From Ferrimonas sp. YFM (lineage in GTDB: Bacteria > Pseudomonadota > Gammaproteobacteria > Enterobacterales > Shewanellaceae): 64,000 nucleotides of DNA. Of this stretch, positions 4,245-52,659 are shown one piece after another. How positions within the stretch are numbered: position 1 is the first letter of the stretch; each line of letters starts with the position of its first letter. Both the position numbers and the translations under genes were made by a program. The notes beneath the pieces are model-generated. The model had not been told where the DNA came from. It saw only the letters and a program-made list of their open reading frames with translations, and did no database searches. The stretch covers positions 1,054,001 through 1,118,000 of the forward strand of contig NZ_AP027368.1 of the NCBI RefSeq assembly GCF_030296015.1, in the 5' to 3' direction.

Positions 4245-5030
4245 ATGAGCGAATCATTGCACGTTACCCGACATGGCCACGTTCTGGAGATTGTTCTGGA
4301 CCGTCCCAAGGCCAATGCCATTGACGCCAAGACCAGCTACGCCATGGGCGAAGTGTTCATGATGTTCCGGGATGACCCGGAGCTTCGGGTGGCCATCATC
4401 ACCGGTGCCGGCGAGCGCTTCTTCTCTGCGGGCTGGGATCTCAAGGCCGCCGCCGAAGGGGAAGCGCCGGATGCCGACTTCGGTCCTGGCGGCTTCGCTG
4501 GCCTGACCGAGCTGTTCGATCTGGATAAGCCGGTGATCGCCGCGGTGAACGGTTACGCCTTCGGCGGTGGCTTCGAGCTGGCCCTGGCGGCGGACATGAT
4601 CGTCTGCGCCGATAACGCCAGCTTCGCCCTGCCTGAAGCCAAGCTGGGCATCGTACCCGACAGTGGCGGCATGCTGCGTCTGCCCAAGGTGATGCCTCAG
4701 GCCATCGTTACCGAGATGATGATGACCGGTCGCCGCATGGACGCCGAGGAGGCGCTGCGCTGGGGTGTGGTCAACCGTGTGGTACCCGTGGATCAGCTGA
4801 TGGACAGTGCCCGTGAGCTGGCGGCCCAGATCGCTCAGAGTGCCCCTCTGGCGGTGGCTGCCCTGAAGGAGGTGTGTCGCACCACCGCCGAGATGACCGT
4901 GGAAGAGGGCTATCGCTTTACCCGCAGTGGCGCGCTGAAACACTACCCGGCAGTGCTGCACTCCGAGGATGCCCTGGAGGGGCCCGCCGCTTTTGCAGAG
5001 AAGCGCGATCCTGTTTGGAAAGGAAAGTAA
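4245..5030 (+). CDS. caiD: CaiD, crotonobetainyl-CoA hydratase
   Basis: An enoyl-CoA hydratase/isomerase (crotonase) family enzyme that interconverts L-carnitinyl-CoA and crotonobetainyl-CoA. Starting at ATG 4245 gives 261 residues, the E. coli length. The oxyanion-hole segment ([20 protein letters not shown]), [11 protein letters not shown] with Glu111, and Glu131 in [15 protein letters not shown] fall at the positions of the catalytic glutamates in E. coli CaiD. An in-frame ATG at 4209 would add 12 residues, but GGAG at 4234-4237 fits the 4245 start. Confidence 0.96.
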
Positions 5031-5208
5031 TCATCATCGTTTGACCGTTTATTTTTTCTCATGGAATGAGAAGGTAAAAATAAACGCCGTATTCACTTAA
5101 CCCTTTGGGTTATTAGAGTTCAAAACTATTTATCTGGTTTGTTTCTGACAATCCGGAGGGATAAGTGTTTTTTCAACCTGTACCTATCGAGCGTTAGCGT
5201 TATCGCTT

Positions 5209-5275
5209 GGCGAGCTCTACACGAGGAATTCTGGCGGGTGTGCCATAAGTAGAGTCTCGCCCTTTTTTTATTTTT
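5209..5275 (+). terminator. Terminator-like structure between caiD and caiE
   Basis: Arms 5209-5220 (GGCGAGCTCTAC) and 5249-5261 (GTAGAGTCTCGCC) pair over 12 bp with one bulged base, and a T-rich run (5263-5275) follows at once. The loop is 28 bases, longer than in a typical intrinsic terminator. It would cut or attenuate transcription before caiE, 40 bases downstream. Confidence 0.55.
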
Positions 5276-5315
5276 ATCTCGTGAGTTGATATCACGTTTT
5301 TTATCTGGAGTGGTG

Positions 5316-5906
5316 ATGCCCTGTTACCAGTTTGAAGGCCTGACACCTGTGGTGGACCCCAGTGCCTATGTGCATCCGACGGCGGTGCTTATCGGCGACG
5401 TCATCATTGGCGCTGATGTCTATGTTGGCCCCAATGCGGTGCTGCGTGGAGACTTCGGCAGGTTGATCCTGGAGTCCGGCTCCAATCTGCAGGATGGCTG
5501 CATCATGCACGGCTACTGTGACCATGACACCAAGGTGGAGGCCAATGGCCATATCGGTCATGGGGCGGTGCTCCATGGCTGCACCATCGGCCGCGATGCC
5601 CTGGTGGGGATGAACGCCGTGGTGATGGATGGGGCGGTGATCGGCCCCCAAAGCCTGGTGGCAGCCATGAGCTTCGTCAAAGTGGGCTTTCAGGGAGCGC
5701 CCAGGCAGTTGCTGGCGGGCAGTCCTGCCCGGGTGAAGCGCAGCCTCACCGAGCAGGACCTGGAGTGGAAGCGCCTCAACACCCTGGAGTACCAGGCCCT
5801 GGCCAAACGCAGTGCCCTCTCCATGACGCCGGTTGCCCCCCTGACCAGGCCTGAAACGAACAGACCCAGGCTGACAGGCGTTACCGAGGTGACGCCCTCA
5901 GCCTGA
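5316..5906 (+). CDS. caiE: CaiE, carnitine-operon hexapeptide-repeat protein
   Basis: A left-handed beta-helix (gamma-carbonic anhydrase/PaaY-like) protein. It is linked to the carnitine pathway in E. coli, perhaps in cofactor supply or activation; its exact reaction is unsettled. ATG 5316 gives 196 residues, the E. coli CaiE length. Hexapeptide motifs run from about 15 to 150 ([36 protein letters not shown]), with His residues at the usual metal-site positions. The C-terminus ([14 protein letters not shown]) is CaiE-like. The ribosome site is GGAG at 5307-5310. It is set apart from caiD by 285 bases containing a terminator-like hairpin, so expression may be lower or independent. Confidence 0.92.
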
Positions 5907-6060
5907 TACCGATTTTGTCGCCTGCCGGAGGAGCAAACACTGTCATCTGCCGGAGTGTATCCACCTCTCTCATCCTCGGATCCCCTGCGGGCAATTTCGG
6001 GGGGCGACACCCTACACCCCGGGGCGGAAGACCGCCTCATTGATAACCAAGGAGACGTTG

Positions 6061-7002
6061 ATGTCACTGGACCCTCAAGTGGCGGCCTACCTGGAAGAGG
6101 TACGCCAATCCGGAGCCAAGCCCTATGAGGCGATGACGCCGCAGGAAGCCCGGGCCCTGGAGCTCTCTGGCGGCGAGCCAGCCCGAACCCCGGAGCCCGT
6201 GGCGGCCGTAGAGCATCTGTTCATCCCCGGCCCCACGGCGGATCTGCCGGTGCGCCTCTACCGGCCCGCTGGCGTCACCGCTCCCGAGCAGGGGATGCCG
6301 GCGCTGATCTTCTTCCACGGCAGCGGCTGGATGGTGTCCAACGTCGGCACCAACGACCCCTTCGCCCGGGCACTGGCCAATCGCACCGGCGCCGTGGTGG
6401 TGGCGGTCAACTACCAGAAAGCCCCGGAGCATAAGTTCCCCATCCCCATGGAGGACTGCTTCGCATCCACCCAATGGGTGTTTGACCACGCGGCCGCTCT
6501 GGGTCTGGATCCCCAGCGCATCGGCCTGTTTGGCGACAGTGCCGGCGGCAACCTGGCCGCCGCCGTGGCCCTGCGTTGCCGGGATGAGCAGGGTCCAAGC
6601 CTGGCCTGTCAGGTGCTGGTGTACCCCGCCGTCCAGTACGGCCTGGAGACCCGCTCCATGGTGGAGCACGGCACAGGTTACCTGCTTGAGCGGGCCAGCA
6701 TGGAGTATTACTGGGGCCACTATATGCGCGCCCCTACCGACGCCCTGCACCCCTACTGCGCGCCTCTGGGCGCCAGTGACCACAGCCGCTTGCCCCCCAC
6801 CCTGATCTACTGTGCCCAGTATGACCCCCTGTGTGACGACGGCGCCCTCTACTCAGACAAGCTGGCCCGTGCCGGCGTACCGGTGCAGTACCGGGTATTC
6901 GATGGCGTGATTCATGGCTTCATCAAGATGCTGGGCAGTTGCGACCAGGCGGATCACTTCCTCGACGTGGTGGCCCGGGACGTCCGTCCACTGCTGGGCT
7001 GA
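6061..7002 (+). CDS. HSL-family (family IV) alpha/beta-hydrolase esterase
   Basis: A 313-residue carboxylesterase of the hormone-sensitive-lipase group. The oxyanion-hole motif is HGSGW (86-90, in place of the usual HGGG). The nucleophile elbow is GDSAG with Ser160; Asp255 (YDPLCDD) and His285 (GVIHGF) complete the triad. There is no signal peptide, so it is cytoplasmic. ATG 6061 has AAGGAG a few bases upstream; a TTG at 6040 is less likely. It follows caiE by 154 bases and precedes the SMR gene by 10, so those two are probably co-transcribed. The substrate is unknown. Placement by the cai genes makes a carnitine ester or acylated derivative conceivable (inference only). Confidence 0.85.
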   Translation: MSLDPQVAAYLEEVRQSGAKPYEAMTPQEARALELSGGEPARTPEPVAAVEHLFIPGPTADLPVRLYRPAGVTAPEQGMPALIFFHGSGWMVSNVGTNDPFARALANRTGAVVVAVNYQKAPEHKFPIPMEDCFASTQWVFDHAAALGLDPQRIGLFGDSAGGNLAAAVALRCRDEQGPSLACQVLVYPAVQYGLETRSMVEHGTGYLLERASMEYYWGHYMRAPTDALHPYCAPLGASDHSRLPPTLIYCAQYDPLCDDGALYSDKLARAGVPVQYRVFDGVIHGFIKMLGSCDQADHFLDVVARDVRPLLG

Positions 7003-7012
7003 GCGAAATCCG

Positions 7013-7342
7013 ATGACCTATCTGTGGCTGTTGCTGGCCATAGTGGCGGAAGTGGCGGCCACCAGCTTGCTGGAACACACCCGGGGCTTTACCCGGGTGC
7101 TGCCTACCCTGGCGTGTCTGGTCGGGTATCTGCTGGCCTTTGCCCTGCTGGCCAGGGTGGTGACTCAGATGCCGGTGGGCATCGCCTATGCCCTGTGGTG
7201 CGGCATCGGCATGGTGCTGGTGGCGGTCATCGCCTGGTTGGTCCAGGGGCAGAAGCTGGACGGGCCGGCACTGCTGGGGTGTGGCCTGATCCTGGCCGGC
7301 TCCCTGGTTATTCATCTTTTTTCAGCGGTTTCGGTCCGCTGA
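7013..7342 (+). CDS. SMR-family multidrug efflux protein (EmrE-like)
   Basis: A 109-residue inner-membrane protein with four predicted helices. It carries the small multidrug resistance hallmarks: the proton/substrate-binding Glu13 in helix 1 ([10 protein letters not shown]), GFTRVLP after it, and the helix-3 motif [11 protein letters not shown]. Proteins of this group exchange protons for quaternary ammonium or guanidinium compounds. Gamma-butyrobetaine is itself a quaternary amine, so a link to the cai products is possible but untested. ATG 7013 lies 10 bases after the esterase stop. Confidence 0.9.
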
Positions 7343-7376
7343 TACCCAAACGAATCGAGAAGCTAAGGAGTATCAG

Positions 7377-9008
7377 GTGAGAGTCAGTAACCTGAGTGTG
7401 AGAAACAAGATCGCCCTGGGGTATCTGGGCATCGCCCTGGCGTTTGCCCTGCTGATTGGCCTGGTGACCCGTCAGACCATGGAGATGGACAGGACCATGG
7501 CCGAATTCAGCCAGCAAACCCTGCCCAGGCTGATGTTGGTGGAGGACATGCGTGCCTTCATCATCGACTATCGAAAGTATGACTTTTCCCTGGTCTCCAA
7601 TGCCGGGGATCCGGACATGGGCCTGTGGGTCGCCGACGGTCGCAAGATGCCCCTGACCATGGAGGGCCACCTTCAAGAGTATGTGGCCGGTATCGACTCC
7701 GAGCAGGAGCGCCAGACCCTGGCACAACTTCAACAAGCCTGGGAAGCCTATCTCATCGCCAATGCGCCGTTTTTGGATCTGGTCAGTGAAGACCGGTACC
7801 AGGACGCCAACGCCGCCATCATGGCCAGCTACCCCGCCTACCTCAAGCTGATGGAGGCCACCGAGGCCCTGGTGGAGTTCAATCAGCAGGTGGTGGAAGC
7901 AGACACCCTCGCCAGCCAGGAGGCCTCAACCCGCAGCTACTGGGTGCTGGGAGGGGGTGCCCTGTTGGTGGGTGTCTTTATGCTGGGAAGCGCGATGGTG
8001 CTGGTGCGCCAGATCTGCCGTCCATTGGCCAGGGTTCGGACCTTTATCTCAGCAGTGGCCCAGGGGGACCTCACCTGTCAGCTGGATCAGTCCCATTTCT
8101 CCCAGGACGAATTGGGGCAACTGGCCGCCGACAGCAGGCAGATGGGTGAGCGGCTGGCCTCTTTGGTGGCTGAAATAGCCGGGGCCGCCGATCAGCTTGG
8201 CGGGGCCATCGATGAGGTTGGCTCGGTGTCGGAGCAGGTGTCTCAGGGGATGGCGCAACAGCAGGCGCGCATCGGCTCCATCGCCGCCGCCATGACCCAG
8301 ATGCAGACCACGGTGGATGAGGTGGCGCGCAACACTCAGTCCGCCTCGGGTTCGGCGGATCAGGCCAATGGCGACGCCGGTTCCGGCATGAGTGAGGTGC
8401 AAAGCAGCATCCAGGGCATCGGCGAGGCGGAGAGAGTGATCCAGCAGGCGGGGGAACTGGCGGCAGAGCTGGAGCGGGAGACCAACAACATCACCGTGGT
8501 GGTGGACGTGATCCGCGAAATTGCCGACCAGACCAACCTGTTGGCCCTCAATGCCGCCATCGAGGCGGCCCGGGCGGGTGAGCAGGGCAGGGGCTTTGCG
8601 GTGGTGGCCGATGAGGTGCGCACCCTGGCCGGTCGTACCCAGGAGTCCACCAGCCGCATCAACGCCATCATCGAACAGCTGCAGGCCAGCTCCAAGCAGG
8701 CCGGCGAGGCCACCCAGGCCAGCTGCGAGCTGATCAAGAGCTGCGTGGCCCAGGCCGACAGGGCCAGCCACTCCATGACTCAGGTGGTGACCAGCATCGA
8801 TGCCATCGCCGCCATGAACACCCAGATTGCCGGTGCCTGCGCCCAGCAGCAGTCGGTGGCCACCGAACTGGGCCAGAACCTGGAGGGGGTCAGTCAAGCC
8901 TCCCGGGAAGTGGCCGCCGGCTCGGCCCAGACCGCCAGGGCCAGCGTCGAGCTGGGGCAACTGGCCTCCCAGCTGCACGGCGCCGTCAGTCAATTTCGCA
9001 TTCAATAG
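7377..9008 (+). CDS. Methyl-accepting chemotaxis protein
   Basis: A 543-residue chemoreceptor. TM1 is at about 12-30; a periplasmic helical ligand domain of four-helix-bundle type follows (about 31-186), then TM2 (about 188-210), HAMP (about 211-263) and a long cytoplasmic coiled coil. The CheA/CheW-binding tip ([20 protein letters not shown], from about 380) is canonical. The C-terminus (QFRIQ) has no NWETF-type tether for CheR/CheB. The ligand cannot be read from sequence. The start is GTG 7377 with AAGGAG at 7365-7370. It lies 34 bases after the SMR gene and 12 before panD, all on one strand. Confidence 0.93.
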
Positions 9009-9020
9009 AAGAGACCACCT

Positions 9021-9404
9021 ATGATCACAACCATGCTGAAGGGCAAGCTGCATCAGGCCCGAGTGACCCACGCCGAGCTGGAGTATGAAGGCTCCTGCGC
9101 CATCGACCGGGAGTTTCTGGCCCTGGCCGGAATCCTGGAGTACGAGAAGATCGAACTCTACAACGTCGATAACGGCGAGCGATTTGCCACCTATGCCATC
9201 GCCGCCGAGGCGGGCAGCAAGATAATTTCCGTCAATGGTGCCGCCGCCCACAAGGCCTCCCCCGGTGACCGGCTGATCATCTGCGCCTATGTGCAGATGG
9301 CCCAGCATCAGGCCCAGAACCACAAGCCCAGCCTGGTGTACCTGGCCGAGGGCAACCGGGTGAAGGGGGTTGGCCAGGGCGTGCCGGTTCAGGCCGCCGG
9401 TTAA
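9021..9404 (+). CDS. panD: PanD, aspartate 1-decarboxylase proenzyme
   Basis: A pyruvoyl-dependent enzyme that makes beta-alanine for pantothenate and CoA. The 127-residue proenzyme self-cleaves at Gly24-Ser25 (EGSCAID) to form the pyruvoyl group. Lys9, Tyr58-type substrate residues and the [13 protein letters not shown] segment agree with E. coli PanD. It is not next to panB or panC, unlike E. coli. It sits 12 bases downstream of a chemoreceptor gene, probably by operon rearrangement rather than a functional tie. Confidence 0.96.
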
Positions 9405-9409
9405 GGGAA

Positions 9410-9442
9410 CGCCTCGCCGATTCCCGGGGGATTGGCAAGGCG
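9410..9442 (+). other. Strong hairpin downstream of panD
   Basis: A 15-bp near-perfect stem (9410-9424 with 9428-9442; two G-U pairs, one mismatch) starts six bases after the panD stop. Only a short T-stretch follows, so it may be a weak terminator or a message-end structure. The rest of the gap to glyA (9443-9583) shows no clear riboswitch. Confidence 0.45.
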
Positions 9443-9583
9443 GATTTCGATGCGCAGGGATGCGCCAACTATCGCGTTCATTTATGAGGAAACAGCATCC
9501 GGGCTCATTGGACTTGGGATCGGGGTCACACAGGAGTAAACTAGTGGCCGCCTAAAAAATAACCCCCTACGCAGGAGACATGG

Positions 9584-10840
9584 ATGCTGGAAAAAACTAT
9601 GAACATCGCCGATTTTGATCCCGAACTCTGGGAAGCGATGGAAGCGGAGCGTGTCCGTCAGGAAGAGCATATCGAACTGATCGCCTCCGAAAACTACACC
9701 AGCCCCCGAGTGCTGGAGGCCCAGGGCTCTCAGCTGACCAACAAGTACGCAGAAGGCTATCCGCACAAGCGCTATTACGGTGGCTGTGAGTATGTCGACA
9801 AGTCCGAAGAGCTGGCCATCAATCGTGCCAACGAGCTGTTCGGTTCCGACTACGCCAACGTTCAGCCCCACTCCGGCTCCCAGGCCAATGCCGCGGTCTA
9901 CATGGCCCTGCTGCAGCCCGGCGATACCGTACTGGGAATGAGCCTGGCCCACGGTGGCCACCTGACCCACGGCGCCAGCGTCTCCTTCTCCGGGAAAATG
10001 TACAACGCCGTTCAGTACGGTATCTCTCCTGAGACCGGTGAGATCGATTACGACGAAGTGCTGGCCCTGGCCAAAGAGCATCAGCCCAAGATGATCATCG
10101 CCGGCTTCTCCGCCTACTCCGGTGTCATCGACTGGGCCAAATTCCGCGAGATTGCCGATGAAGTGGGTGCCTACCTGTTTGTGGACATGGCCCACGTGGC
10201 GGGTCTGATTGCCGCCGGCGTCTACCCCAACCCGGTGCCTCACGCCCATGTGGTGACCACCACCACTCACAAGACCCTGGCGGGTCCCCGTGGTGGCCTG
10301 ATCCTCTCCGCCTGTGGCGACGAGACCATCTACAAGAAGCTGAACTCCGCGGTGTTCCCCGGCGGTCAGGGCGGCCCTCTGTGTCACGTGATCGCCGCCA
10401 AGGCGGTGGCCTTCAAGGAAGCGCTGCAGCCTGAGTTCAAAACCTACCAGCAGCAGGTGGTGACCAACGCCCAGGCGATGGCCGAAGTGTTCATGGCCCG
10501 TGGTTATAAGGTGGTGTCCGGTGGTACTCAAAACCACCTGTTCCTGTTGGACCTCATCGACAAGGACATTACCGGTAAGGATGCGGACGCCGCCCTGGGC
10601 CGCGCCAACATCACGGTCAACAAGAACTCAGTGCCCAACGATCCCCGCAGCCCCTTTGTGACCTCTGGTCTGCGTATCGGCACCCCGGCCCTGACCCGCC
10701 GTGGCATCGACGAGGCGGAATGTCGCGAGATGACCGGCTGGATCTGCGACATCCTCGACGATTTCGGTAACGAAGCCGTGGTCGAGCGGGTGAAGTCCCA
10801 GGTGAAGGAGCTGTGTGCCCGCCGTCCGGTTTACCGCTAA
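9584..10840 (+). CDS. glyA: GlyA, serine hydroxymethyltransferase
   Basis: A PLP enzyme that converts serine plus tetrahydrofolate to glycine plus 5,10-methylene-THF, the main one-carbon source. It has 418 residues. The N-terminus ([16 protein letters not shown]), the [19 protein letters not shown] block, and the PLP-lysine motif [14 protein letters not shown] (near residue 229) are standard. ATG 9584 matches the MLKxxMNIADYD start of E. coli; a second ATG at 9599 is less likely. It has its own strong terminator and leads into nrdR and the riboflavin genes, as in Shewanella. Confidence 0.97.
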
Positions 10841-17036: not shown

Positions 17037-17090
17037 TTTACATATGCGTTTTGGCGAATATAATTAGTGCATATTCGTTTTTCCATATGT
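17037..17090 (+). promoter_or_regulatory. Promoter and nested operator of the arsR operon
   Basis: TTTACA (17037-17042) and a perfect TATAAT (17059-17064) are 16 bases apart. An inverted repeat CGAATAT (17055-17061) and ATATTCG (17071-17077) covers the -10. A second, outer repeat ACATATG (17040-17046) and CATATGT (17084-17090) encloses it on nearly the same axis. The AT-rich dyad with TATTCG is typical of ArsR/SmtB repressor sites, so ArsR autoregulation with arsenite release is expected. Confidence 0.75.
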
Positions 17091-17098
17091 GAGTCACC

Positions 17099-17446
17099 AT
17101 GAGAGATCCCGTATCCCTGCTCAAGGGGTTGGCCGACGCCACCCGGCTGAAGATCATGCTGCTCATCAGCCGCGAAGGGGAGCTGTGCGTCTGCGAGCTT
17201 TCCACTGCACTGGATGAGAGCCAACCCAAGATATCCCGTCACCTGGCCCGTCTGCGCAGTGAAGGCTTGCTGCGCGATGTGCGTAAGGGTCAGTGGGTGT
17301 TCTACCGCCTGGCGGAACTGCCGGACTGGACCCTGGATACCCTGGATGGACTCAACCAGCAACGGCCCGACGTCATCGACGCCGACATCAAACGACTGGC
17401 GGCCATGGGCGATCGCCCCGACCGCAAAGCACTGTGCTGCGACTGA
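17099..17446 (+). CDS. arsR: ArsR, arsenite-responsive repressor
   Basis: A 115-residue winged-helix repressor of the ArsR/SmtB family. The arsenite-site motif ELCVCEL gives Cys30 and Cys32 at the DNA-recognition helix; the third cysteine of E. coli ArsR (CVCDLC) is absent there. A vicinal pair Cys113-Cys114 at the C-terminus (ALCCD) may serve as ligands. ISRHLARLRSEGLL is the recognition helix. It is first in the operon and sits below a dyad-covered promoter; nine bases separate it from acr3. Confidence 0.93.
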   Translation: MRDPVSLLKGLADATRLKIMLLISREGELCVCELSTALDESQPKISRHLARLRSEGLLRDVRKGQWVFYRLAELPDWTLDTLDGLNQQRPDVIDADIKRLAAMGDRPDRKALCCD

Positions 17447-17455
17447 GGGGAAATC

Positions 17456-18514
17456 ATGGGACTGTTTGAACGTTATCTTAGCCTGTGGGTGGCCCTGGCC
17501 ATTGGCGCAGGCGTCCTGCTGGGCCAGCTGTGGCCCGAGGCCTTCGCTGCCCTGGCCAACTGGCAGGTGGCGCAAATCAATTTGGTCATTGCCGTACTTA
17601 TCTGGGTGATGATCTTCCCGATGATGGTGCAGGTGGAGTTCCGCTCCGTGCGTCAGGTGAGCCGCCAACCCAAAGGGCTGTGGCTGACTTTGGTGATCAA
17701 CTGGCTGATCAAGCCCTTCACCATGGCCGCCATCGCCTGGCTGTTCTTCCGTGGCCTGTTTGCGGATCTGGTGCCTGCCGCCGACGCGGAGCAGTACATT
17801 GCCGGGATGATCCTGCTGGGCGTGGCGCCCTGTACCGCCATGGTGTTTGTCTGGTCACAGCTGACCCGGGGCAACCCGGCCTACACCCTGGTTCAGGTAT
17901 CGGTGAACGACCTCATCATGGTGGTGGCTTTTGCCCCCATTGCCGCCCTGTTGTTGGGGGTGTCTGAGATCACCGTGCCCTGGGAAACCCTGGCCCTGTC
18001 CACCCTGCTCTATGTGGTGCTGCCCCTGGCCGTGGGCATCCTGGTCCGCCAACTGCTACTGCGACGTGGTCAGGCCGCCCTGGCGCGCTTCTGTGACAGC
18101 CTTAAGCCGGCGTCCATGACCGGCCTGCTGGCCACCGTGACGATCCTGTTTGGCATCCAGGCGCCCACTCTGCTGGCCAGCCCCATGGTGATCGGCTTGA
18201 TTGCCATCCCCTTGCTGATTCAGACCTATGGCATCTTCGTGATCGCCTACGGTGGTGCCAAGCTGCTCAAGTTGCCCCATAATGTGGCGGCTCCGGCAGC
18301 GATGATCGGCACCTCCAATTTCTTCGAGCTGGCGGTGGCGGTGGCCATTGCCCTGTTCGGCCTGCATTCCGGTGCGGCGCTGGCGACCGTGGTCGGTGTT
18401 CTGGTGGAGGTGCCGGTGATGCTCTCCCTGGTGGCCCTGGCCAATCGCACCCGCCACTGGTTTCCCCAGGCCGACGACAACCCCCATACTGACGCGGCGC
18501 CACAGTCCGCGTAA
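17456..18514 (+). CDS. acr3: Acr3-family arsenite efflux transporter
   Basis: A 352-residue, ten-helix inner-membrane protein of the BART superfamily that expels arsenite. The key motif [13 protein letters not shown] carries the essential Cys126, and [10 protein letters not shown] and [18 protein letters not shown] are Acr3 signatures. It is not the unrelated ArsB type. It would clear arsenite made inside the cell, or re-entering after periplasmic arsenate respiration by the ArrAB encoded nearby. Confidence 0.93.
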
Positions 18515-18537
18515 TCAACCGACTGAGAGAGAGAAAG

Positions 18538-19545
18538 ATGACGGTAAAAGTAGGCATCAACGGATTCGGGCGCATGGGGCGCCTGGCCCTGCGCGCCGCC
18601 TGGCAGTGGCCGGACTTTGAATTTGTTCAGGTGAATGACCCGGCGGGTGACGCCGACAGCCTGAGCCACCTGCTGGCCTTTGACAGCGTTCATGGTCGCT
18701 GGGATGCGGAGATCCGCAGTGAAGGCGATGCGATGATCATCGACGGCAAACGCATCGAAGTGACCAGCCACAAGACTCCGGCGGAGGGCGACTGGTCCGG
18801 GTGCGACATTGTCATTGAGGCATCCGGCAAGTTCAAGAGCAAAGAGAAACTGCAGCCCTTCCTGGACCAGGGGGTCAAGCGCGTGGTGGTGACGGCGCCG
18901 GTGAAGCAGGAAGGGGTGCTCGATGCAGTCTATGGCGTAAACCATCACTGGTACGACAGGGAGGTGCACCGCATTGTCACCGCCGCCTCCTGTACCACCA
19001 ACTGTCTGGCGCCAGCGGTGAAGGTGATCCAGGAGAAGCTGGGCATCAAGCACGGCTCCATGACCACCATCCACTCCATCACCAACACCCAGACCATTCT
19101 GGATGCGCCCCATAAGGATCTGCGCCGTGCCCGCGCCTGTGGCGAGAGCCTGATCCCCACCACTACGGGGTCGGCTACCGCCATCACCCACATCTTCCCC
19201 GAGCTCAAGGGCCGGCTCAACGGCCATGCGGTGCGGGTGCCTCTGTGCAACGCCTCCATTACCGATTGCGTGTTCGAGCTGGAGCGGGCCACCACGGTGG
19301 AGGAGGTCAATGCCCTGCTGAAAGAGGCCGCAGAAGGTGAACTGAAAGGGGTGCTGGGCTATGAGGAGCGTCCTCTGGTCTCCATCGATTATCGCACCAA
19401 CCCCCACTCCAGCGTGGTGGATGCCCCCTCCACCATGGTGGTGAACGACACCCAGCTTAAGCTCTACCTCTGGTATGACAACGAGTGGGGCTACGTCAAC
19501 CGTACCATGGAGCTGGCCCGCTACCTGGTGGCCCAGGGTCTTTGA
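18538..19545 (+). CDS. ArsJ-associated glyceraldehyde-3-phosphate dehydrogenase
   Basis: A 335-residue type I GAPDH with an NAD-binding [15 protein letters not shown], catalytic Cys152 ([10 protein letters not shown]) and His179. It differs from housekeeping Gap, for example in [11 protein letters not shown] and [19 protein letters not shown]. In ars operons such enzymes use arsenate in place of phosphate to form unstable 1-arseno-3-phosphoglycerate, which ArsJ exports. Gene order GAPDH-arsJ inside an arsR operon supports that role. A terminator-like hairpin follows it. Confidence 0.92.
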
Positions 19546-19549
19546 TTTC

Positions 19550-19574
19550 AGGCCGACCTCTGGGTCGGCCTTTT
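19550..19574 (+). terminator. Terminator-like hairpin between the GAPDH gene and arsJ
   Basis: Perfect 9-bp stem AGGCCGACC/GGTCGGCCT, loop TCTG, then TTT. The short T-run predicts partial rather than full termination, which would lower arsJ relative to the upstream genes. Confidence 0.6.
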
Positions 19575-19599
19575 CTATGCTGGTTTATCTACTGACTCT

Positions 19600-20847
19600 A
19601 TGATTGCCAAGATACGCGGCCTGAGCCCAGGCCTTCGCCAGTACTTGCTGGTGACCTTCAATTACTGGAACTTCACCCTGACCGACGGCGCCCTGAGGAT
19701 GCTGGTGGTGCTCCACTTCCATCAGCTGGGTTACAGCCCGCTGGCCATCGCCTCGCTGTTCCTCTTCTACGAGATCTTCGGGGTGGTCACCAACCTGGTG
19801 GGCGGCTACCTGGGGGCGCGCATCGGCCTCAACCGCACCATGAACCTTGGGTTGGGGATGCAGGTGGTGGCGCTGCTGATGCTGGCGGTACCCTCACCCT
19901 GGCTGTCGGTGCCCTATGTGATGGCGGCCCAGGCGCTGTCGGGCATCGCCAAAGATCTCAATAAGATGAGCGCCAAGAGTGCCATCAAGACCCTGGTGCC
20001 CAAGGGGGAGTCCGGTGCCCTCTACCACTGGGTGGCGGTGCTGACCGGCTCCAAAAACGCCCTCAAGGGGGCGGGGTTCTTCCTCGGTGGCCTGCTGTTG
20101 GTGGTGCTGGGCTTCCAGGGGGCCATGGTGGCCATGGCCGGAGTACTGCTGCTGGTGCTGCTGGCCAGCCTCAACTGGCTGGGGCAGGACATGGGGCGGG
20201 CCAAGAGCAAGCCTAAGTTCTCCCAGCTGTTCTCCAAGAGCCCCAGCATCAACATTTTGTCGGCGGCGCGGTTGTTCCTGTTCGGGGCCCGGGATCTCTG
20301 GTTTGTGATTGCCCTGCCGGTGTATCTGGGCACCACTTTTGGCTGGAGCCACACCGCCGTCGGCGGCTTCCTGGCTCTGTGGGTGATCGGCTACGGCTTC
20401 GTTCAGGGGATCGCCCCCAGAATCACCGGCAGTGACCGTCGCCATGGGGCGGTGCCCGACGGCGCTGGTGCCCTGAAGTGGGCGGCGCTGCTGACAGGGG
20501 TGACCCTGATGGTCGCCCTAGGGGTGCAGCTGCAGTTTCTGCCCCAGTTCACCATAGTGGTGGGGCTGATGCTGTTTGGTGCGGTGTTTGCGGTGAACTC
20601 CAGCCTGCACTCCTTCCTCATCGTCCATTACGCCGGTGAGGACGGGGTGTCCATGGATGTGGGCTTCTACTACATGGCCAACGCCATGGGGCGGCTGGTG
20701 GGCACCATACTGTCGGGGCTGGTGTTCCAACTGGCCGGACTGGCGGCCTGTCTCTGGGTTTCTGCAGCCTTCCTGGCACTGACTACACTGATCTCACTCT
20801 GGCTGCCCAAAGACAGCAGCCAATCCCTCTCACAAGGAGCGCCATAA
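19600..20847 (+). CDS. arsJ: ArsJ, organoarsenical (1-arseno-3-phosphoglycerate) exporter
   Basis: A 415-residue major-facilitator protein with about 11-12 helices. The start (RQYLLVTFNYWNFTLTDGALRMLVVLHFHQLG) and the DLNKMSAKSAIKTLVP loop are characteristic of ArsJ. It exports the product of the neighbouring GAPDH, giving arsenate resistance without reduction. ATG 19600 has no recognisable ribosome site and lies 25 bases after a terminator-like hairpin. Its TAA shares one base with the next start (TAATG). Confidence 0.92.
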   Translation: MIAKIRGLSPGLRQYLLVTFNYWNFTLTDGALRMLVVLHFHQLGYSPLAIASLFLFYEIFGVVTNLVGGYLGARIGLNRTMNLGLGMQVVALLMLAVPSPWLSVPYVMAAQALSGIAKDLNKMSAKSAIKTLVPKGESGALYHWVAVLTGSKNALKGAGFFLGGLLLVVLGFQGAMVAMAGVLLLVLLASLNWLGQDMGRAKSKPKFSQLFSKSPSINILSAARLFLFGARDLWFVIALPVYLGTTFGWSHTAVGGFLALWVIGYGFVQGIAPRITGSDRRHGAVPDGAGALKWAALLTGVTLMVALGVQLQFLPQFTIVVGLMLFGAVFAVNSSLHSFLIVHYAGEDGVSMDVGFYYMANAMGRLVGTILSGLVFQLAGLAACLWVSAAFLALTTLISLWLPKDSSQSLSQGAP

Positions 20848-21332
20848 TGAGCTTTTCTCCCATCACCCTGACCCTGTCCGGGGTTAACCTGGCTCTCCAC
20901 TCGGCCCCCGGGTTGGAGGGGGACCTGACCGGGGATCTGAAGACGCTGAAGCAACTGGGGGTGACCGCCATGGTCACGACCCTCACCGACGAGGAGTTGC
21001 AGCGGTTTGGCATTGCCGGGTTGGGCCCTGAGGCTGAATCCCAGGGGATCGCCTGGCAGCATCTGTCGGTGAAAGACAAGTCTTTGCCGGATGAGGCCTT
21101 TGAGCATCAATGGCCCCAGGCGATGGAGCAACTGCTTCCCCGGCTGCTGAGCAGCGAGCGGGTCTCGGTCCATTGCCGGGGCGGCACCGGCAGAACAGGC
21201 CTGGTGGCAGCCCGATTGCTGCTGGCCGCCGGCATCCCCCTGTCTGAGGTGGTGGAAGCGGTGCGCCAGGCTCGTCCCGGTGCCCTGGCCAGCGAGGAGC
21301 AGGTTGACTATCTGAGCCGGCATCAGGCTTGA
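20847..21332 (+). CDS. CX5R protein phosphatase (dual-specificity/tyrosine type) coupled to arsJ
   Basis: A 161-residue cytoplasmic protein of the cysteine-phosphatase superfamily. The P-loop HCRGGTGRTG has Cys110 and Arg116 in the CX5R signature. An upstream Asp (VKDKSLPDE, about 76-82) could be the general acid. Because the GxGxxG arrangement of true phosphatases is intact, phosphatase activity is likelier than an Acr2-like arsenate reductase role. The start overlaps the arsJ stop, so both are translated together. Its place in arsenic resistance is unknown. Confidence 0.75.
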   Translation: MSFSPITLTLSGVNLALHSAPGLEGDLTGDLKTLKQLGVTAMVTTLTDEELQRFGIAGLGPEAESQGIAWQHLSVKDKSLPDEAFEHQWPQAMEQLLPRLLSSERVSVHCRGGTGRTGLVAARLLLAAGIPLSEVVEAVRQARPGALASEEQVDYLSRHQA

Positions 21333-21450
21333 TTGTGTGTTCGCGCATTGGCCGTCGGGCAGAGCTGCTCTGGGCCTGAATAGGGGGCAGGAGTAGGCGG
21401 GCCGGCCCCCGCGGGGGAGAGAGTGCCCCTTGGGGACCGACCCTTAAGGG

Positions 21451-21822
21451 TCAGAACAGCCTGATCTGCTCAGGGCTGTCGTAGTGAATGATTCTGTTGG
21501 CCATTCCCTCCAGTTCCGGAAGGGTGTTGCATCCATGCTTTTTCAATAATATCAGCGGTTTTCCTGCCGCTGCGCTGTAGCCTGCGGCTACCGCAGCCAG
21601 CATGGAGTCCTGATACACCTCCATGATGGTCATGTCCACGGAGCGCAACTGTTCAACCAGTTGGTCCATGATGCCCTGGGGATACCCCTCCTCCGGATCC
21701 ACCGTCTGCTGCCACAGGCTCAGGGCGACGCCCTGACGCTTCAGAGAACGGGCAATCTGATGGTGGTGAATGCTGGGGTTGCTGCACCCTGTGGGCAGGC
21801 TGATAAAGCTGGCACTTGGCAT
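21451..21822 (-). CDS. Unknown 123-residue protein, possibly nucleoside-deoxyribosyltransferase-like fold
   Basis: I do not recognise this gene. Starting at ATG 21822 (GGAG 10 bases upstream) gives 123 residues without signal or membrane segment. The middle (VDMTIMEVYQDSMLAAVAAGYSAAAGKP, about 62-89) has the D...E...S...A..AGKP pattern of nucleoside 2-deoxyribosyltransferase-like Rossmann folds; a similar layout occurs in TIR-like folds. It follows arrB on the same strand but after a strong terminator, so it is probably transcribed on its own. It converges with the arsJ-phosphatase operon across 118 bases rich in short palindromes. Confidence 0.65.
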   Translation of the reverse strand: MPSASFISLPTGCSNPSIHHHQIARSLKRQGVALSLWQQTVDPEEGYPQGIMDQLVEQLRSVDMTIMEVYQDSMLAAVAAGYSAAAGKPLILLKKHGCNTLPELEGMANRIIHYDSPEQIRLF

Positions 21823-21833
21823 GGTGTCTCTCC

Positions 21834-21862
21834 AAAAAAAACGGCGGGTTGCCCCGCCGTTT
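21834..21862 (-). terminator. Intrinsic terminator of arrAB
   Basis: Read on the - strand: perfect 10-bp stem (21862-21853 with 21848-21839), loop of four, then a run of seven T (complement of 21834-21840). It starts nine bases after the arrB stop. Confidence 0.9.
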
Positions 21863-21871
21863 ATCATGGGC

Positions 21872-22573
21872 TTAGGCCTGTCTTACACCGAAGGTTCGGA
21901 TGTAATAGATGCTGGGCTTGGTGCCCGCTTCAGGCTTGAGCTGCATCGGTTTGTGCATCTTGATCAGGCGGGATACCTCGCTGTTGGGATCGCTGAGATC
22001 CCCAACCACCCGGGCGCCAGCCGGACAGGCGTCCACGCAGGCGGGAGCAAGGCCCACGGCCTGGCGGTGGTCACAACCGGTGCACTTCTCGACGGTACGG
22101 CGGGGGCGGGTGACCGGATAGGTGTCGCCGCGCTCCGGGTTCTCGTGGGGCGAGTGCTTGGCGCCGGTAACCATCAGCACCTCTTTCGGTGAGACGGTAC
22201 CGTTTTCCACCAGGGCGGTGTCATCCTGCCAGCTGCGGTGCGGGGCCTGCTTGTTGAAGCTGATGACGCCGTAGGGGCAGGCGCGCTCACAGCGGCGGCA
22301 GCCGATGCATTTGTCGTTGTCCTGCAGGGTCAGGCCGTTGTCCGCCTTGTACATGGCGCCCTTGGGGCACACCTTCACACAGGCTGCGTCCTCACAGTGG
22401 TTGCACAGAGTGGGGATGTAGCTGTAGCTCACGTCGGGGAATTTCCCCTCGGTTTTGCTGATGTGATGGGACCACTGGATCCCTTCAGGGGTGTTGTTTT
22501 CCGTCTTACAGGCGAGGTCACAGCCGCCGCAACCTACGCATTTTTGCAGGTCGATAACCATTCCAAATTTCAT
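21872..22573 (-). CDS. arrB: ArrB, iron-sulfur subunit of respiratory arsenate reductase
   Basis: A 233-residue ferredoxin-like subunit with 16 cysteines for four [4Fe-4S] clusters: Cys12/15/18/22, 57/60/65/69, 89/92/95/99 and 164/167/179/183. It carries electrons to the ArrA molybdenum site. It has no signal peptide and would be exported with ArrA through the Tat system. Eleven bases separate it from arrA. Size and partner fit ArrB of Shewanella ANA-3 (about 234 residues as I recall). Alone it could pass for DmsB or PhsB; the assignment rests on ArrA. Confidence 0.9.
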   Translation of the reverse strand: MKFGMVIDLQKCVGCGGCDLACKTENNTPEGIQWSHHISKTEGKFPDVSYSYIPTLCNHCEDAACVKVCPKGAMYKADNGLTLQDNDKCIGCRRCERACPYGVISFNKQAPHRSWQDDTALVENGTVSPKEVLMVTGAKHSPHENPERGDTYPVTRPRRTVEKCTGCDHRQAVGLAPACVDACPAGARVVGDLSDPNSEVSRLIKMHKPMQLKPEAGTKPSIYYIRTFGVRQA

Positions 22574-22584
22574 CTGTTGTTACC

Positions 22585-25149
22585 TCACGCTTTCTCGATA
22601 CGGATACGGGTGTGGCCATAGAAGGCCGAGGCGCCGCTGAATCTGTCGTAGCGGGCCGGGATGATGGCGTTGTTGCTGCCACCGCGTGGGGTCTTGCCGA
22701 ACTCCTTGGCGGCGTAGCGGCCGTAGGCCCAGTGACCCTGGCCAAACGCCTTGGCGACACTGCCTGGACGTACCCCTTCCCACAGCTTGGCGGTACAGGT
22801 CAGCTCGCCCACAGTGCTGATGATGCGAATTTCGTCGCCATCCTTGATGCCCAAAGCGTTGGCATCAATGGGGTTCATCTTGGCCACATCCTGATAGGCT
22901 TCATCGCCAGGGGTAACATCGCCAAACTCATAGAACCAGGGGGCGTTCTGAGAACGGCCTTCGTGACTGAGGCGAGACTTGTGGTCCACCAGCAGCAGTG
23001 GGAACTCTTTGGCGTCGCCGTCACGAACCGGCTCCTGGTAGTGAGGCACGAAGGCCAATTCACCGAAGCCGGTGTACTCACAGGCCTTGACCACGTCGTC
23101 GATGGACACATGGTGACGCTTGGCGTGTTTGCCCAGGGCGTGCTCCAGGGTGACGCTGTAGAACTCGAACTTGTGGGTATCGGTCTTAAACTTGCCCCAG
23201 CGCTTGCGGTACTCATAGGGGTGGGAGTTCCATACGCCGCGCTTCACAAACTCGTCCCAGCCGGAGAGCTTCTCACCATACTTGGAGGCGTCTTTCTGCC
23301 AGATGCCGGTGGTCAGGTGCTTGATGGCGATCTCGGCAAACTCTTCGGAGTCCTTGGCCGGCTTGCCGGTTTCCGGATCGACAATCTTGTCATTGATGTA
23401 GCGCCAGGCGTTGTCGAAGCCCTTGTCCGCCAACTTCTTGGCCAGCAGGTAGGGCACCTCGGTCTCATCCTGACGGGTGTCGTACATCCGCTTGATGCTG
23501 GGCACCTGCAGAGACACGTGGCTGACGCCATTACCGGCGGCCTTCAGCAGGCCCCATTTCTCGAACATGTGGTGGCTGGAGGGCAGCAACACGTCGGCAA
23601 ACCAGCTGAACTCGGAGATGCTGGTGGTGATGTGCGCCATGAAGGGCAGGCGGCTCAGGGCCTTCTCCCAACGCTCGGTTTCCGGTGCGGCGAAGGTGAA
23701 GTTGTTGAAGTAGGCCAGCATCACCTCGATCTCATAGGGATCGGCGTTGAGGATGCCGTCGGCGGCGTTGTTGGTGACCACGCCCTTACCGGACTTACCC
23801 TTCTTCAGGGCGGGGAATTCCAGACGGCCACGCTGGTCGATCTTTTCGTGCTTCTTGCCCTTCTTGGCGATGGCGTCAATGTAGTCCGCGGCATCGGGGA
23901 AGGTTTTGCTCACTGGCGCCTTGTTGTAGGGGAACAGGCCGCCTTCATTGTCGATGGCACCGAACAGGCCGTTGAGGGCGTGACAGGCCATGGAGGTGTA
24001 GGTGCCCCGGGTCTGCATCACCGCGCCACGGGCGGTCCACACCTGCACTGCAGGAGCGGCGGATCCCATCTCTCTGGCCATGGTGCGGATGTCATCGGCT
24101 TTCACGCCGGTCACGCTTTCGCCCCACTCGGCGCTGTACTGGTTCAGCGCCAGGTTCCACCATTTCACCAGACCATGGCTGTACTTGTCTTCGAACAGGG
24201 ACTCATCCACCTTGTTGCCGGCAACGAAGTGGTTTTTGCCGTCTTTGAAGTCTCCGACAAACGGCTTGTACCAGACGCCGGCCACCAGAGCTTCGTGGGC
24301 GATGGCCAGGGCCAGGGCGGAATCCTGACCTGTCTCGATGGGGATCCACTTATGGGCCTTGGCCGCGGACGCGGACAGACGTGGGTCCACCACCACCACC
24401 TTGGCGCGGTCTAGGGTGTTGCCCCACTCGCTGGAGTAGAAGCTCACCTGGCGGTTGGATGCGATGGGATCGGCACCAAAGGAGAGGATGTACTTGGTGT
24501 TGGTTACGTCATACTGGTTGTAGCCCCAGTTGCCGTCCTGATAGAAGGGCCCCATCTTGTGGGCCTCGGCACAGATGGCGCTGTGGGAGATGTTGTTGGG
24601 GGAGCCAATGATCTTGGTCATCTTGTCATACAGCAGATCCCGGGCCAGAGAGTAGCGGCCACGGAGCAACGCGTACTTGTGGCTCTCGCCGCGCTCACGC
24701 AGGTCTAGGATGCGATCGGCAATCATATCCAGGGCCTTGTCCCAGCTGATGGGCACAAATTTGGGATCTTCGTTGCGACCCTTCTTGGGGTTGGTGCGCA
24801 TCATCGGAGTCTTGAGGCGATCCGCGTCGTACACCATCTGCAGACCCAGGTGCTGACGGGGGCAACCTGCGGTGTCGTGGATCTTGGAGTAGGGGTTACC
24901 TCGCACCTTGGTGGCGCGACCATCCATGATGTAGACCTGCTTGGCACACCAGGAGGTGCAACCCTGACAGGTGGTGGGGACCCAGGTGCCTGTGTTGGTG
25001 CGCAGGTCTACCTTGGGCAGCTCGGCGGCGATGGCGTCCATTACCGGAGCAAAGGCAAAGCCACCGCTGATCCCGGTGGCGGCAGTGCCGGCCAGTGAAG
25101 CTTTCAATAACGCCCTGCGGGACGTGCTGAACTCTCTTTTTGTGGTCAT
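22585..25149 (-). CDS. arrA: ArrA, catalytic subunit of respiratory arsenate reductase
   Basis: A periplasmic molybdopterin oxidoreductase of 854 residues that reduces arsenate to arsenite as terminal electron acceptor. A Tat signal (SRRALLKAS, Arg11-Arg12) leads to the cluster motif CX2CX3CX27C (Cys61, 64, 68, 96), the spacing reported for ArrA. RGRYS (163-167), SHSAICAEAHK with Ser190, Cys193 (Mo ligand) and Lys198, and Tyr210 fall on the numbers I recall for the ANA-3 ArrA active site (Arg165, Tyr166, Ser190, Cys193, Lys198, Tyr210). No membrane anchor gene follows, which fits electron supply by a CymA-type quinol dehydrogenase. The ATG at 25149 has a weak ribosome site. Confidence 0.9.
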   Translation of the reverse strand: MTTKREFSTSRRALLKASLAGTAATGISGGFAFAPVMDAIAAELPKVDLRTNTGTWVPTTCQGCTSWCAKQVYIMDGRATKVRGNPYSKIHDTAGCPRQHLGLQMVYDADRLKTPMMRTNPKKGRNEDPKFVPISWDKALDMIADRILDLRERGESHKYALLRGRYSLARDLLYDKMTKIIGSPNNISHSAICAEAHKMGPFYQDGNWGYNQYDVTNTKYILSFGADPIASNRQVSFYSSEWGNTLDRAKVVVVDPRLSASAAKAHKWIPIETGQDSALALAIAHEALVAGVWYKPFVGDFKDGKNHFVAGNKVDESLFEDKYSHGLVKWWNLALNQYSAEWGESVTGVKADDIRTMAREMGSAAPAVQVWTARGAVMQTRGTYTSMACHALNGLFGAIDNEGGLFPYNKAPVSKTFPDAADYIDAIAKKGKKHEKIDQRGRLEFPALKKGKSGKGVVTNNAADGILNADPYEIEVMLAYFNNFTFAAPETERWEKALSRLPFMAHITTSISEFSWFADVLLPSSHHMFEKWGLLKAAGNGVSHVSLQVPSIKRMYDTRQDETEVPYLLAKKLADKGFDNAWRYINDKIVDPETGKPAKDSEEFAEIAIKHLTTGIWQKDASKYGEKLSGWDEFVKRGVWNSHPYEYRKRWGKFKTDTHKFEFYSVTLEHALGKHAKRHHVSIDDVVKACEYTGFGELAFVPHYQEPVRDGDAKEFPLLLVDHKSRLSHEGRSQNAPWFYEFGDVTPGDEAYQDVAKMNPIDANALGIKDGDEIRIISTVGELTCTAKLWEGVRPGSVAKAFGQGHWAYGRYAAKEFGKTPRGGSNNAIIPARYDRFSGASAFYGHTRIRIEKA

Positions 25150-25209
25150 AGCTATATGCCTATGTGTGTATATGTGGTTTCACGCATATCTAAGCGGATT
25201 TTGTATTTT

Positions 25210-25233
25210 TTTTGTGAGGTAGTAGTCACAAAA
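25210..25233 (-). promoter_or_regulatory. Inverted repeat upstream of arrA
   Basis: TTTTGTGA (25210-25217) and TCACAAAA (25226-25233) form a perfect 8-bp dyad with an 8-base centre, 60 bases before the arrA start. The half-sites TGTGA/TCACA match CRP, but CRP spacing is six, not eight. It may be an operator for an unidentified regulator. No convincing -10/-35 pair can be placed on it. Confidence 0.5.
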
Positions 25234-25299
25234 GAGAGCGCCCGAATTCGGTATATCCCTCAAAAGAGGTAGTGAATTTAGTTTTTTGCGGTGTAGATC

Positions 25300-25324
25300 A
25301 AAAAAGCCCCGCTTGGCGGGGCTT
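25300..25324 (-). terminator. Intrinsic terminator of yjaG
   Basis: On the - strand: 9-bp stem (25324-25316 with 25312-25304), loop of three, then six T (complement of 25300-25305). It separates yjaG from arrA. Confidence 0.85.
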
Positions 25325-25349
25325 GGTTTGGAATAGTGGCTGGGGAGTC

Positions 25350-51688: not shown

Positions 51689-51778
51689 GGTGAGGTGGCC
51701 GAGTGGCTGAAGGCGCGCCCCTGCTAAGGGCGTATACCTTGATCGGTATCGAGGGTTCGAATCCCTCCCTCACCGCCA
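51689..51778 (+). tRNA. serV: tRNA-Ser (GCU), copy 1
   Basis: 90 nt with encoded CCA. Acceptor GGTGAGG pairs with CCTCACC; anticodon loop CTGCTAA gives GCU (codons AGC/AGU); the long variable arm (TATACCTTGATCGGTAT) marks a serine tRNA; the T-loop is GGTTCGAATCC. Order csrA-Ser-Arg is as in E. coli (csrA-serV-argV). Confidence 0.96.
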
Positions 51779-51782
51779 TTGC

Positions 51783-51859
51783 GCGCTCGTAGCTCAGCTG
51801 GATAGAGTACCTGGCTACGAACCAGGCGGTCGAAGGTTCGAATCCTTCCGAGCGCGCCA
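51783..51859 (+). tRNA. tRNA-Arg (ACG), copy 1, acceptor type A
   Basis: 77 nt with CCA. Acceptor GCGCTCG/CGAGCGC; anticodon loop CTACGAA gives ACG (read as ICG; codons CGU/C/A). It follows tRNA-Ser by TTGC. The Ser-Arg pair (51689-51859) is repeated exactly at 52988-53158. Confidence 0.96.
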
Positions 51860-51867
51860 TTTTCTTT

Positions 51868-51999
51868 AAGGATGCCTGAGCTGCGCTCAGGGGTTCTACG
51901 CGCTTGGTCGGATTGCCGGCCTGCGGGCAAAGCCCTACGGCGTTGCCGCGGCGAAAGCTTCGCTTTCTAGTGTCCGCGCCAACCCTTCCGAGCGCGCCA
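51868..51999 (+). repeat. tRNA-tailed repeat, copy 1
   Basis: A 132-base unit starting eight bases after tRNA-Arg copy 1 and ending in CCTTCCGAGCGCGCCA (51984-51999), the exact 3' end of the type A tRNA-Arg. A stub GCGCTTGGT (51900-51908) resembling the tRNA 5' end precedes the core CGGATTGCCGGCCTGCGGG. The core can form several hairpins, such as GAAAGC-TTC-GCTTTC. Copy 2 is at 52263-52393; a diverged core is at 52696-52749. Confidence 0.85.
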
Positions 52000-52007
52000 T
52001 ACATAAG

Positions 52008-52040
52008 AAAGCCGCGCAGTGCTTGCGCGGCTTTTATTTT
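52008..52040 (+). terminator. Terminator after first tRNA unit and repeat copy 1
   Basis: Perfect 11-bp stem AAAGCCGCGCA/TGCGCGGCTTT, loop GTGCT, then TTTTATTTT. Confidence 0.88.
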
Positions 52041-52069
52041 CCCCGAGGGGAAGACAACAGAATTAGTGT

Positions 52070-52146
52070 GCGTCCGTAGCTCAGCTGGATAGAGTACCTG
52101 GCTACGAACCAGGCGGTCGAAGGTTCGAATCCTTCCGGACGCGCCA
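52070..52146 (+). tRNA. tRNA-Arg (ACG), copy 2, acceptor type B
   Basis: 77 nt, identical to copy 1 except for the acceptor stem, GCGTCCG/CGGACGC. The two compensatory pair changes keep full pairing, so both types should be functional. Confidence 0.95.
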
Positions 52147-52180
52147 TTAATTCCCAAGCACAGCTTGGAAAATACTTTGC

Positions 52181-52257
52181 GCGCTCGTAGCTCAGCTGGA
52201 TAGAGTACCTGGCTACGAACCAGGCGGTCGAAGGTTCGAATCCTTCCGAGCGCGCCA
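52181..52257 (+). tRNA. tRNA-Arg (ACG), copy 3, acceptor type A
   Basis: 77 nt, identical to copy 1. Repeat copy 2 begins six bases after its CCA, as repeat copy 1 does after tRNA copy 1. Confidence 0.95.
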
Positions 52258-52262
52258 TTTTA

Positions 52263-52393
52263 AAGGATGCCTGAGCTGCGCTCAGGGGTTCTATACGCTT
52301 GGTCGGATTGCCGGCCTGCGGGCAAGCCCTACGGCGTTGCCGCGGCGAAAGCTTCGCTTTCTGGATTCCGCGCCAACCCTTCCGAGCGCGCCA
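52263..52393 (+). repeat. tRNA-tailed repeat, copy 2
   Basis: 131 bases closely matching 51868-51999, with differences clustered at ACGCGC/ATACGC, one A less after GGGCAA, and TAGTGTC/TGGATTC. It also ends in the 16-base 3' tail of type A tRNA-Arg (52378-52393). Confidence 0.85.
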
Positions 52394-52436
52394 TCATTTC
52401 GACACTGGGGTATCCCCGGGTCAAAACCAAATATGT

Positions 52437-52646: not shown

Positions 52647-52659
52647 TATTGATAAAAAA

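Follow-up and report, generated by a model that had tools for sequence, protein, structure and literature searches.

Gene content and identity of the arsenic locus

The DNA analysed here, hereafter the window, is a stretch of 64,000 nucleotides from the marine bacterium Ferrimonas sp. YFM (contig 1 of a closed 4.66-Mb genome, NZ_AP027368.1, positions 1054001-1118000), and it carries an arsenic locus of 8 kb made of two convergent halves. The genes of a respiratory arsenate reductase, arrAB (25149-21872, minus strand), face the five genes of a resistance module, arsR-acr3-gapdh-arsJ-phosphatase (17099-21332, plus strand), in which gapdh stands for a glyceraldehyde-3-phosphate dehydrogenase (GAPDH). 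A preliminary description made from the bare sequence had named these genes, and all of them are confirmed as open frames on the strands given there, with full-length profile matches (Table 1); the genes for ArsJ and for the ArsJ-associated GAPDH lie side by side, and each product scores above its curated NCBIfam cut-off.

Regarding the catalytic subunit, ArrA shares 595 of 853 residues (70%) with its counterpart from Shewanella ANA-3, and it is 91% identical to the protein of Ferrimonas futtsuensis and 88-90% identical to those of three other Ferrimonas. The closest solved structure is that of ArrA (6cz7, 1394 bits), followed by a thiosulfate reductase with 136 bits. ArrA carries a twin-arginine motif, SRRALLK, at residue 10, and its CX2CX3CX27C motif begins at residue 61; R165, Y166, H189, C193, K198 and Y210 (ANA-3 numbering), which we take to be active-site positions of ArrA, are all conserved. 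The ArrAB identity first proposed from the cysteine motif, the length of 854 residues and the ANA-3 active-site residues is thereby borne out. No arrC- or arrD-like gene lies alongside arrAB, and every one of the 643 plasmid records with a relative of ArrA falls below 60% identity.

The placement of ArrA was examined in a tree of 40 rows, built from 34 of 76 loci picked by hand, the window protein and five outgroup rows (two PhsA, one DmsA and two presumably Arx-type, the latter so labelled from gene order); the 76 ArrA loci come from a species collection and many are short contigs. The window protein falls inside a 20-row Shewanella/Ferrimonas-type set that includes ANA-3 (support 91/99), and also inside an 11-row subset without ANA-3 (support 99/99), with the Arx-type, PhsA and DmsA rows all outside the ArrA group. 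Of the placement suggested in the preliminary description, the grouping with ANA-3 apart from Arx-type, PhsA and DmsA proteins holds; TtrA, PsrA and SrdA had no rows in this tree, and against the TtrA model the window protein scores 54.8 bits, for a cut-off of 1750. As for other observations on these genes, the nucleotide identity of arrAB is unlike that of its flanks in two related loci (87% versus 91% in L009, and 87% versus 78-80% in L012), hinting at an exchange of arrAB between species. In addition, the ArrA of contig NZ_JAHVJZ010000004.1, labelled Marinobacter nauticus strain DP3N21-5, pairs with that of F. balearica, and this organism label looks wrong.

Table 1. Features of the arsenic locus, with positions in the window
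Feature	Position	Strand	Evidence
arsR promoter region	17037..17098	+	TTTACA-16-TATAAT, 11/12 matches; ATATGCG in the spacer, likely ArsR operator
arsR, As(III)-type repressor	17099..17446	+	NF007528 110.4 bits (cut-off 97); NF033788 87.9 (cut-off 55); ELCVCEL with Cys30 and Cys32
acr3, arsenite efflux permease	17456..18514	+	TIGR00832 392.1 bits (cut-off 282.8)
gapdh, ArsJ-associated GAPDH	18538..19545	+	NF033735 565 bits (cut-off 450)
arsJ, MFS exporter of arsenate or 1-arseno-3-phosphoglycerate	19600..20847	+	NF033734 611.5 bits (cut-off 400)
Dual-specificity-type phosphatase, VarH-like	20847..21332	+	Pfam PTP-SAK 45.1 (cut-off 27); HCRGGTGR (HCX5R), Cys110/Arg116
123-aa open reading frame behind arrB	21451..21822	-	Predicted alpha/beta fold like DNPH1/RCL and 2-deoxyribosyltransferases; presumed catalytic Glu absent
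Intrinsic terminator between arrB and the 123-aa frame	21839..21862	-	10-pair stem and T run
arrB, iron-sulfur subunit of the arsenate respiratory reductase	21872..22573	-	NF041715 485.6 bits (cut-off 450)
arrA, molybdopterin catalytic subunit, Tat signal, 854 aa	22585..25149	-	NF041714 1721.6 bits (cut-off 1600); PDB 6cz7
arrA upstream region, putative regulatory function	25150..25348	-	ATATGCG near the start codon; 8-bp inverted repeat TTTTGTGA-N8-TCACAAAA

The open reading frame (ORF) of 123 codons behind arrB was not listed in the preliminary description; according to the ORF listing, an alternative upstream ATG would give a product of 138 residues. Relatives occupy the same position in three of the 14 Ferrimonas genomes compared, the window included (L011, 13344-13691, and L016, 13338-13706; 39% and 28% identical), and no family model matched in the NCBIfam and Pfam scans, nor was a plasmid relative found. 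Its AlphaFold model, computed from a three-row alignment, has a pLDDT of 83, and in a Foldseek comparison with the PDB it reached a TM-score (query) of up to 0.74 to DNPH1; chains of the flavodoxin-like SsuE and of dehydroquinase had similar E-values, with SsuE the best. The glutamate of GYELGRA, presumably the catalytic residue of DNPH1 and the 2-deoxyribosyltransferases, corresponds to alanine in the window protein and is missing at that position in all three rows, and the product may be a non-enzymatic binding protein, whose possible link to Arr is by position.

Among the remaining features, a promoter scan of the region returned three sigma-70-like sites, with 2.0 expected from shuffled sequences. 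A terminator-like hairpin with a T run is present at 19550-19571, between gapdh and arsJ and inside the presumed operon, where it could set the GAPDH:ArsJ ratio. The perfect 8-bp inverted repeat upstream of arrA is absent from 13 other arrA upstream stretches, one of them incomplete. Away from the locus, the window has a cluster of eight tRNA genes at 51689-53158, six tRNA-Arg(acg) and two tRNA-Ser(gct), in which a Ser-Arg pair is repeated.

Distribution of arrAB and of the resistance module

In a genus sample of 14 Ferrimonas genomes (the source genome, G000, and 13 others), ArrA scores above its cut-off in 12 and ArsJ was found in all 14. The distance between the two genes is not constant: arsJ is at most 5 kb from arrA in three of the 12 ArrA-bearing genomes (G000, G005, G009), 33 kb from it in G004, and distant or on a different contig in the remaining eight. 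The gene order of the window module recurs in G002, G003, G004, G008 and G012; it stands apart from arrAB in four of these, and in G003 it occurs with no ArrA above the cut-off. As for the other genomes, G011 and G013 have acr3-gapdh-arsJ with no matched arsR, G001, G006 and G010 have arsR-gapdh-arsJ of a more diverged type, and G007 has gapdh-arsJ only; the phosphatase match is only partial in G005, and G009 gave none. On the arrB side, G001 has instead an acr3-phosphatase pair, and in F. sediminum the pgpA side follows arrB directly, the resistance module being absent from that interval. Because the placement of the module varies in this way, it is read as a resistance cassette that is common in the genus and touches arrAB through a local arrangement.

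The other flank of arrAB differs as well: DUF416 and arrA are about 5 kb apart in four Ferrimonas relatives (L009, L010, L012, L016), and the window has only about 200 bp there. This stretch was considered as a region of arr regulators and set aside, since the ORFs of L009, the sole locus read (5027-9791), were named by eye as tetR-like, dsb-like and a large secreted protein.

Beyond the genus, ArsJ is near ArrA at no fewer than four of the 76 loci (F. futtsuensis, F. sediminicola, Shewanella hafniensis and Shewanella ANA-3), a lower bound given the number of short contigs among the 76. In an order-level sample of 394 genomes, ArrA was matched (E up to 1e-250) in eight, six of them above the cut-off, and ArsJ in 186; all eight ArrA-bearing genomes carry ArsJ, a co-occurrence that says little because 33 genomes of the window's own family carry ArsJ, with six of the eight ArrA genomes among them.

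A close counterpart of the arsenic locus is that of ANA-3 (NC_008577). Read from its ORFs, it has arsC-, arsB-, arsA- and arsD-like genes in reverse orientation, arrA, arrB, two reverse genes, ArsR-type and LMW-PTP-type genes (LMW, low-molecular-weight; PTP, protein tyrosine phosphatase), a permease-like gene, and then phosphatase, GAPDH and ArsJ genes; of the genes around arrAB, searches gave matches for ArsR, phosphatase, GAPDH and ArsJ alone, the other names being read by eye. It shares with the window arrAB and relatives of ArsR, the HCX5R phosphatase, GAPDH and ArsJ, with phosphatase-GAPDH-ArsJ placed 6-9 kb downstream of arrB. In contrast with the window, arsDABC-like genes diverge from arrA, two LMW-PTP-type and two permease-like genes are seen by eye, no acr3 was matched within the 22.6-kb locus, and the two halves are co-directional instead of convergent.

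A reference arsenate respirer thus already combines Arr with ArsJ, and the view that it is unusual does not hold, given the pairing in ANA-3, in all eight ArrA genomes of the order sample and the presence of ArsJ in all 14 Ferrimonas; likewise, the survey of arr loci for ArsJ neighbours that had been proposed as a check found the pairing at the four loci named above. What stands of the contrast drawn in the preliminary description between ArsJ and ArsABC/D is that the window locus is without the arsDABC genes that ANA-3 has.

Fate of arsenate in the cytoplasm

The substrate of ArsJ is described in two ways. In the accessible text of PMC5930303, which follows earlier work cited there, it is 1-arseno-3-phosphoglycerate that leaves the cell; in that of PMC9601151, on an arsR-GAPDH-phosphatase-arsJ operon, it is argued that the phosphatase VarH splits this compound and that the resulting free arsenate is the main export of ArsJ. 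The presence of a VarH-like phosphatase at the window locus leaves both views in play, and either the organoarsenical or free arsenate may be exported. The window phosphatase has the dual-specificity-type domain, the catalytic HCX5R motif and the GAPDH-ArsJ neighbourhood, and relatives of it lie beside GAPDH-ArsJ in ANA-3 and in other Ferrimonas.

Relatives also occur about 0.1-1.1 kb from ArsJ in at least 12 plasmid records of Photobacterium, Methylophaga, Pseudomonas and Pseudoalteromonas, among the best 60 of 63 phosphatase records compared with the best 60 of 66 ArsJ records (E up to 1e-40); the relative adjoining ArsJ in Photobacterium sp. GJ3 is 38.6% identical to the window protein. Of three plasmid records that were opened, two (Pseudomonas sp. 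CIP-10, Citrobacter amalonaticus) have the phosphatase in an arsenic operon with no annotated ArsJ within 4 kb, and in the third (Thauera) the annotation shows no arsenic gene next to it. The accessible text of PMC6947025 also mentions a tyrosine phosphatase that follows arsJ-gapdh, and VarH is called rather exclusive to Vibrionaceae in that of PMC9601151. Relatives of the window protein that have ArsJ close by come from Pseudomonas, Methylophaga, Pseudoalteromonas, Shewanella and Ferrimonas; together with those in the two plasmid arsenic operons they bear on this exclusivity, as a lead towards a possible wider spread of VarH-like phosphatases.

Comparison with the described systems, as far as their accessible texts go, places the module among known arrangements. 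The var operon (arsR-gapdh-phosphatase-arsJ, PMC9601151) encodes the same four kinds of protein, with C113/R119 in its phosphatase where the window has Cys110/Arg116; it differs in that the window adds acr3, has the phosphatase last, and has an ArsR that keeps the CxC pair altered in the ArsR of that paper. Halomonas GFAJ-1 (PMC5930303) likewise combines Acr3 with GAPDH-ArsJ, with no arsC and no arsenate reductase in its acr3 and mfs-gapdh operons, but it uses two operons and has arsH. ICEpMERPH from Shewanella putrefaciens (PMC6947025) has GAPDH, ArsJ and then a putative tyrosine phosphatase; unlike the window locus it is a mobile element, with no Arr in the text consulted. Literature searches on Ferrimonas with arsenic or arsenate, and on arsJ with arrA, found no description of the locus, subscription papers being mostly outside their coverage.

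As for arsenate reduction, the preliminary description had reported no arsC, which is correct for the 8-kb locus and not for the genome, where an ArsC-family protein of 116 residues is encoded at G000:C1:1348500 (TIGR00014, 147 bits for a cut-off of 106). Its Cys13, Arg61, Arg93 and Arg106 align to the ANA-3 ArsC-like protein, and the claim that cytoplasmic arsenate is handled without reduction is, as it was worded, unsupported. The gene adjoins a presumably bepA-like gene and lies outside any ars cluster. A thioredoxin-type ArsC was also considered and discarded, as the single LMWPc match in the genome looked, on inspection by eye, like an ordinary LMW phosphatase. A search of the genome for ArsB gave no match, an absence weaker than it looks because E. 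coli, which has arsB, was also unmatched among the controls. The role assigned to Acr3 against arsenite is supported by its family.

Interpretation of the locus

Taking the gene identities as established, we infer the electron donor, the regulation and the transport substrate as follows. Once exported by the Tat system, ArrAB would convert periplasmic arsenate to arsenite with electrons drawn from the quinol pool via a tetraheme cytochrome of the NapC/CymA type, the gene for which lies elsewhere. Arsenite reaching the cytoplasm would be expelled by Acr3; the special GAPDH would form 1-arseno-3-phosphoglycerate from cytoplasmic arsenate, and ArsJ, helped by the phosphatase, would export this compound or the arsenate released from it. 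The arsenite-sensing ArsR would repress the resistance operon and perhaps arrA as well. Three NapC/NirT-type cytochromes score above their cut-off in the genome, any one of which could feed Arr; a CymA homologue is listed for F. balearica, and CymA is involved in Shewanella arsenate reduction, according to the accessible part of PMC6295460.

Overall, with a probability of about 90%, the locus is best read as a Shewanella-type periplasmic arrAB operon that lies next to, and converges on, a resistance module common in Ferrimonas, the adjacency being local to a few Ferrimonas and not a new combined system. The putative regulatory motif CGCATAT/ATATGCG is among the points in its favour: 10 of 11 arsR promoters in Ferrimonas and eight of 22 arrA promoters contain it, versus 135 of 11000 windows drawn at random from these loci. 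Some points weigh against this reading. The split between ArrA and Arx has a support of only 85/87 in a midpoint-rooted tree with long outgroup branches; the motif was picked after inspection of the promoters and is missing from the other 14 arrA promoters, including those of F. futtsuensis, which has the nearest ArrA, and ANA-3; finally, no particular one of the three cytochromes that could serve Arr is assigned to it. Despite the weak Arx split, the predicted ArrA assignment is decided by sequence identity and the curated cut-off. That the protein is an Arx arsenite oxidase, a polysulfide or thiosulfate reductase or another DMSO-reductase-family enzyme is extremely improbable: this broad family has many paralogues, and the genome itself has a PhsA-type protein (1320 bits), but the window protein reaches 1721.6 bits with NF041714, against 431-438 for the Arx-type, 184-186 for the PhsA and 118 for the DmsA proteins, and it keeps Tyr166 and Lys198, where the two Arx-type rows have Gly and either Val or Glu. 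The order arxB2-A-B-C-D, which we take to be that of Arx loci, is not found at the locus, which has only arrA and arrB, and the immediate neighbours scanned include no second iron-sulfur subunit and no NrfD-type or TorD-type protein; a B-A-B-NrfD-TorD order was seen at loci L132 and L133. On the model scores, the tree and the pair Tyr166/Lys198, an Arx, Phs or Dms identity was rejected.

Turning to how the two halves relate, they might form one selected unit, in which ArsJ would return arsenate unreduced to the periplasm for respiration by ArrAB, thus recycling the acceptor, with one ArsR coordinating both. The adjacency and the operator-like motif shared in the window speak for such a unit, as do the missing ArsB match, with the limit given above, and the VarH-like phosphatase, free arsenate export being argued in the accessible text of PMC9601151. 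However, arsJ is not close to arrA in nine of the 12 ArrA-bearing Ferrimonas, ArsJ occurs without ArrA in G003 and G013 and far outnumbers it in the order sample (186 of 394 genomes versus eight), and F. futtsuensis, despite the same adjacency, lacks the motif in its arrA promoter, which makes the unit improbable. Its fullest form, in which a single arsenite-sensing ArsR would tie respiration to export, GAPDH, ArsJ and the VarH-like phosphatase would return arsenate for reuse by ArrAB, and the 123-aa Rossmann-like protein would be a new accessory, is very improbable. A less remote option, though still an unlikely one, is that cytoplasmic arsenate is mainly reduced by the distant ArsC-family protein and expelled as arsenite by Acr3, with GAPDH-ArsJ as a minor route. 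The score of that protein and its aligned cysteine and arginines favour this route, but its gene lies outside any ars cluster, and in the accessible text of PMC9601151 an ArsC homologue of another species is called inactive despite its conserved residues, so that the presence of this gene does not settle arsenate reduction.

In conclusion, the locus is one more arsenic gene cluster of a known kind; its annotation was accurate, and the novelty claimed for it is not upheld. The comparison shows that Arr and ArsJ are not the rare pair they were taken for. The presence of ArrA in 12 of 14 Ferrimonas genomes, together with the closed-genome context, gives a basis for testing arsenate respiration outside Shewanella.

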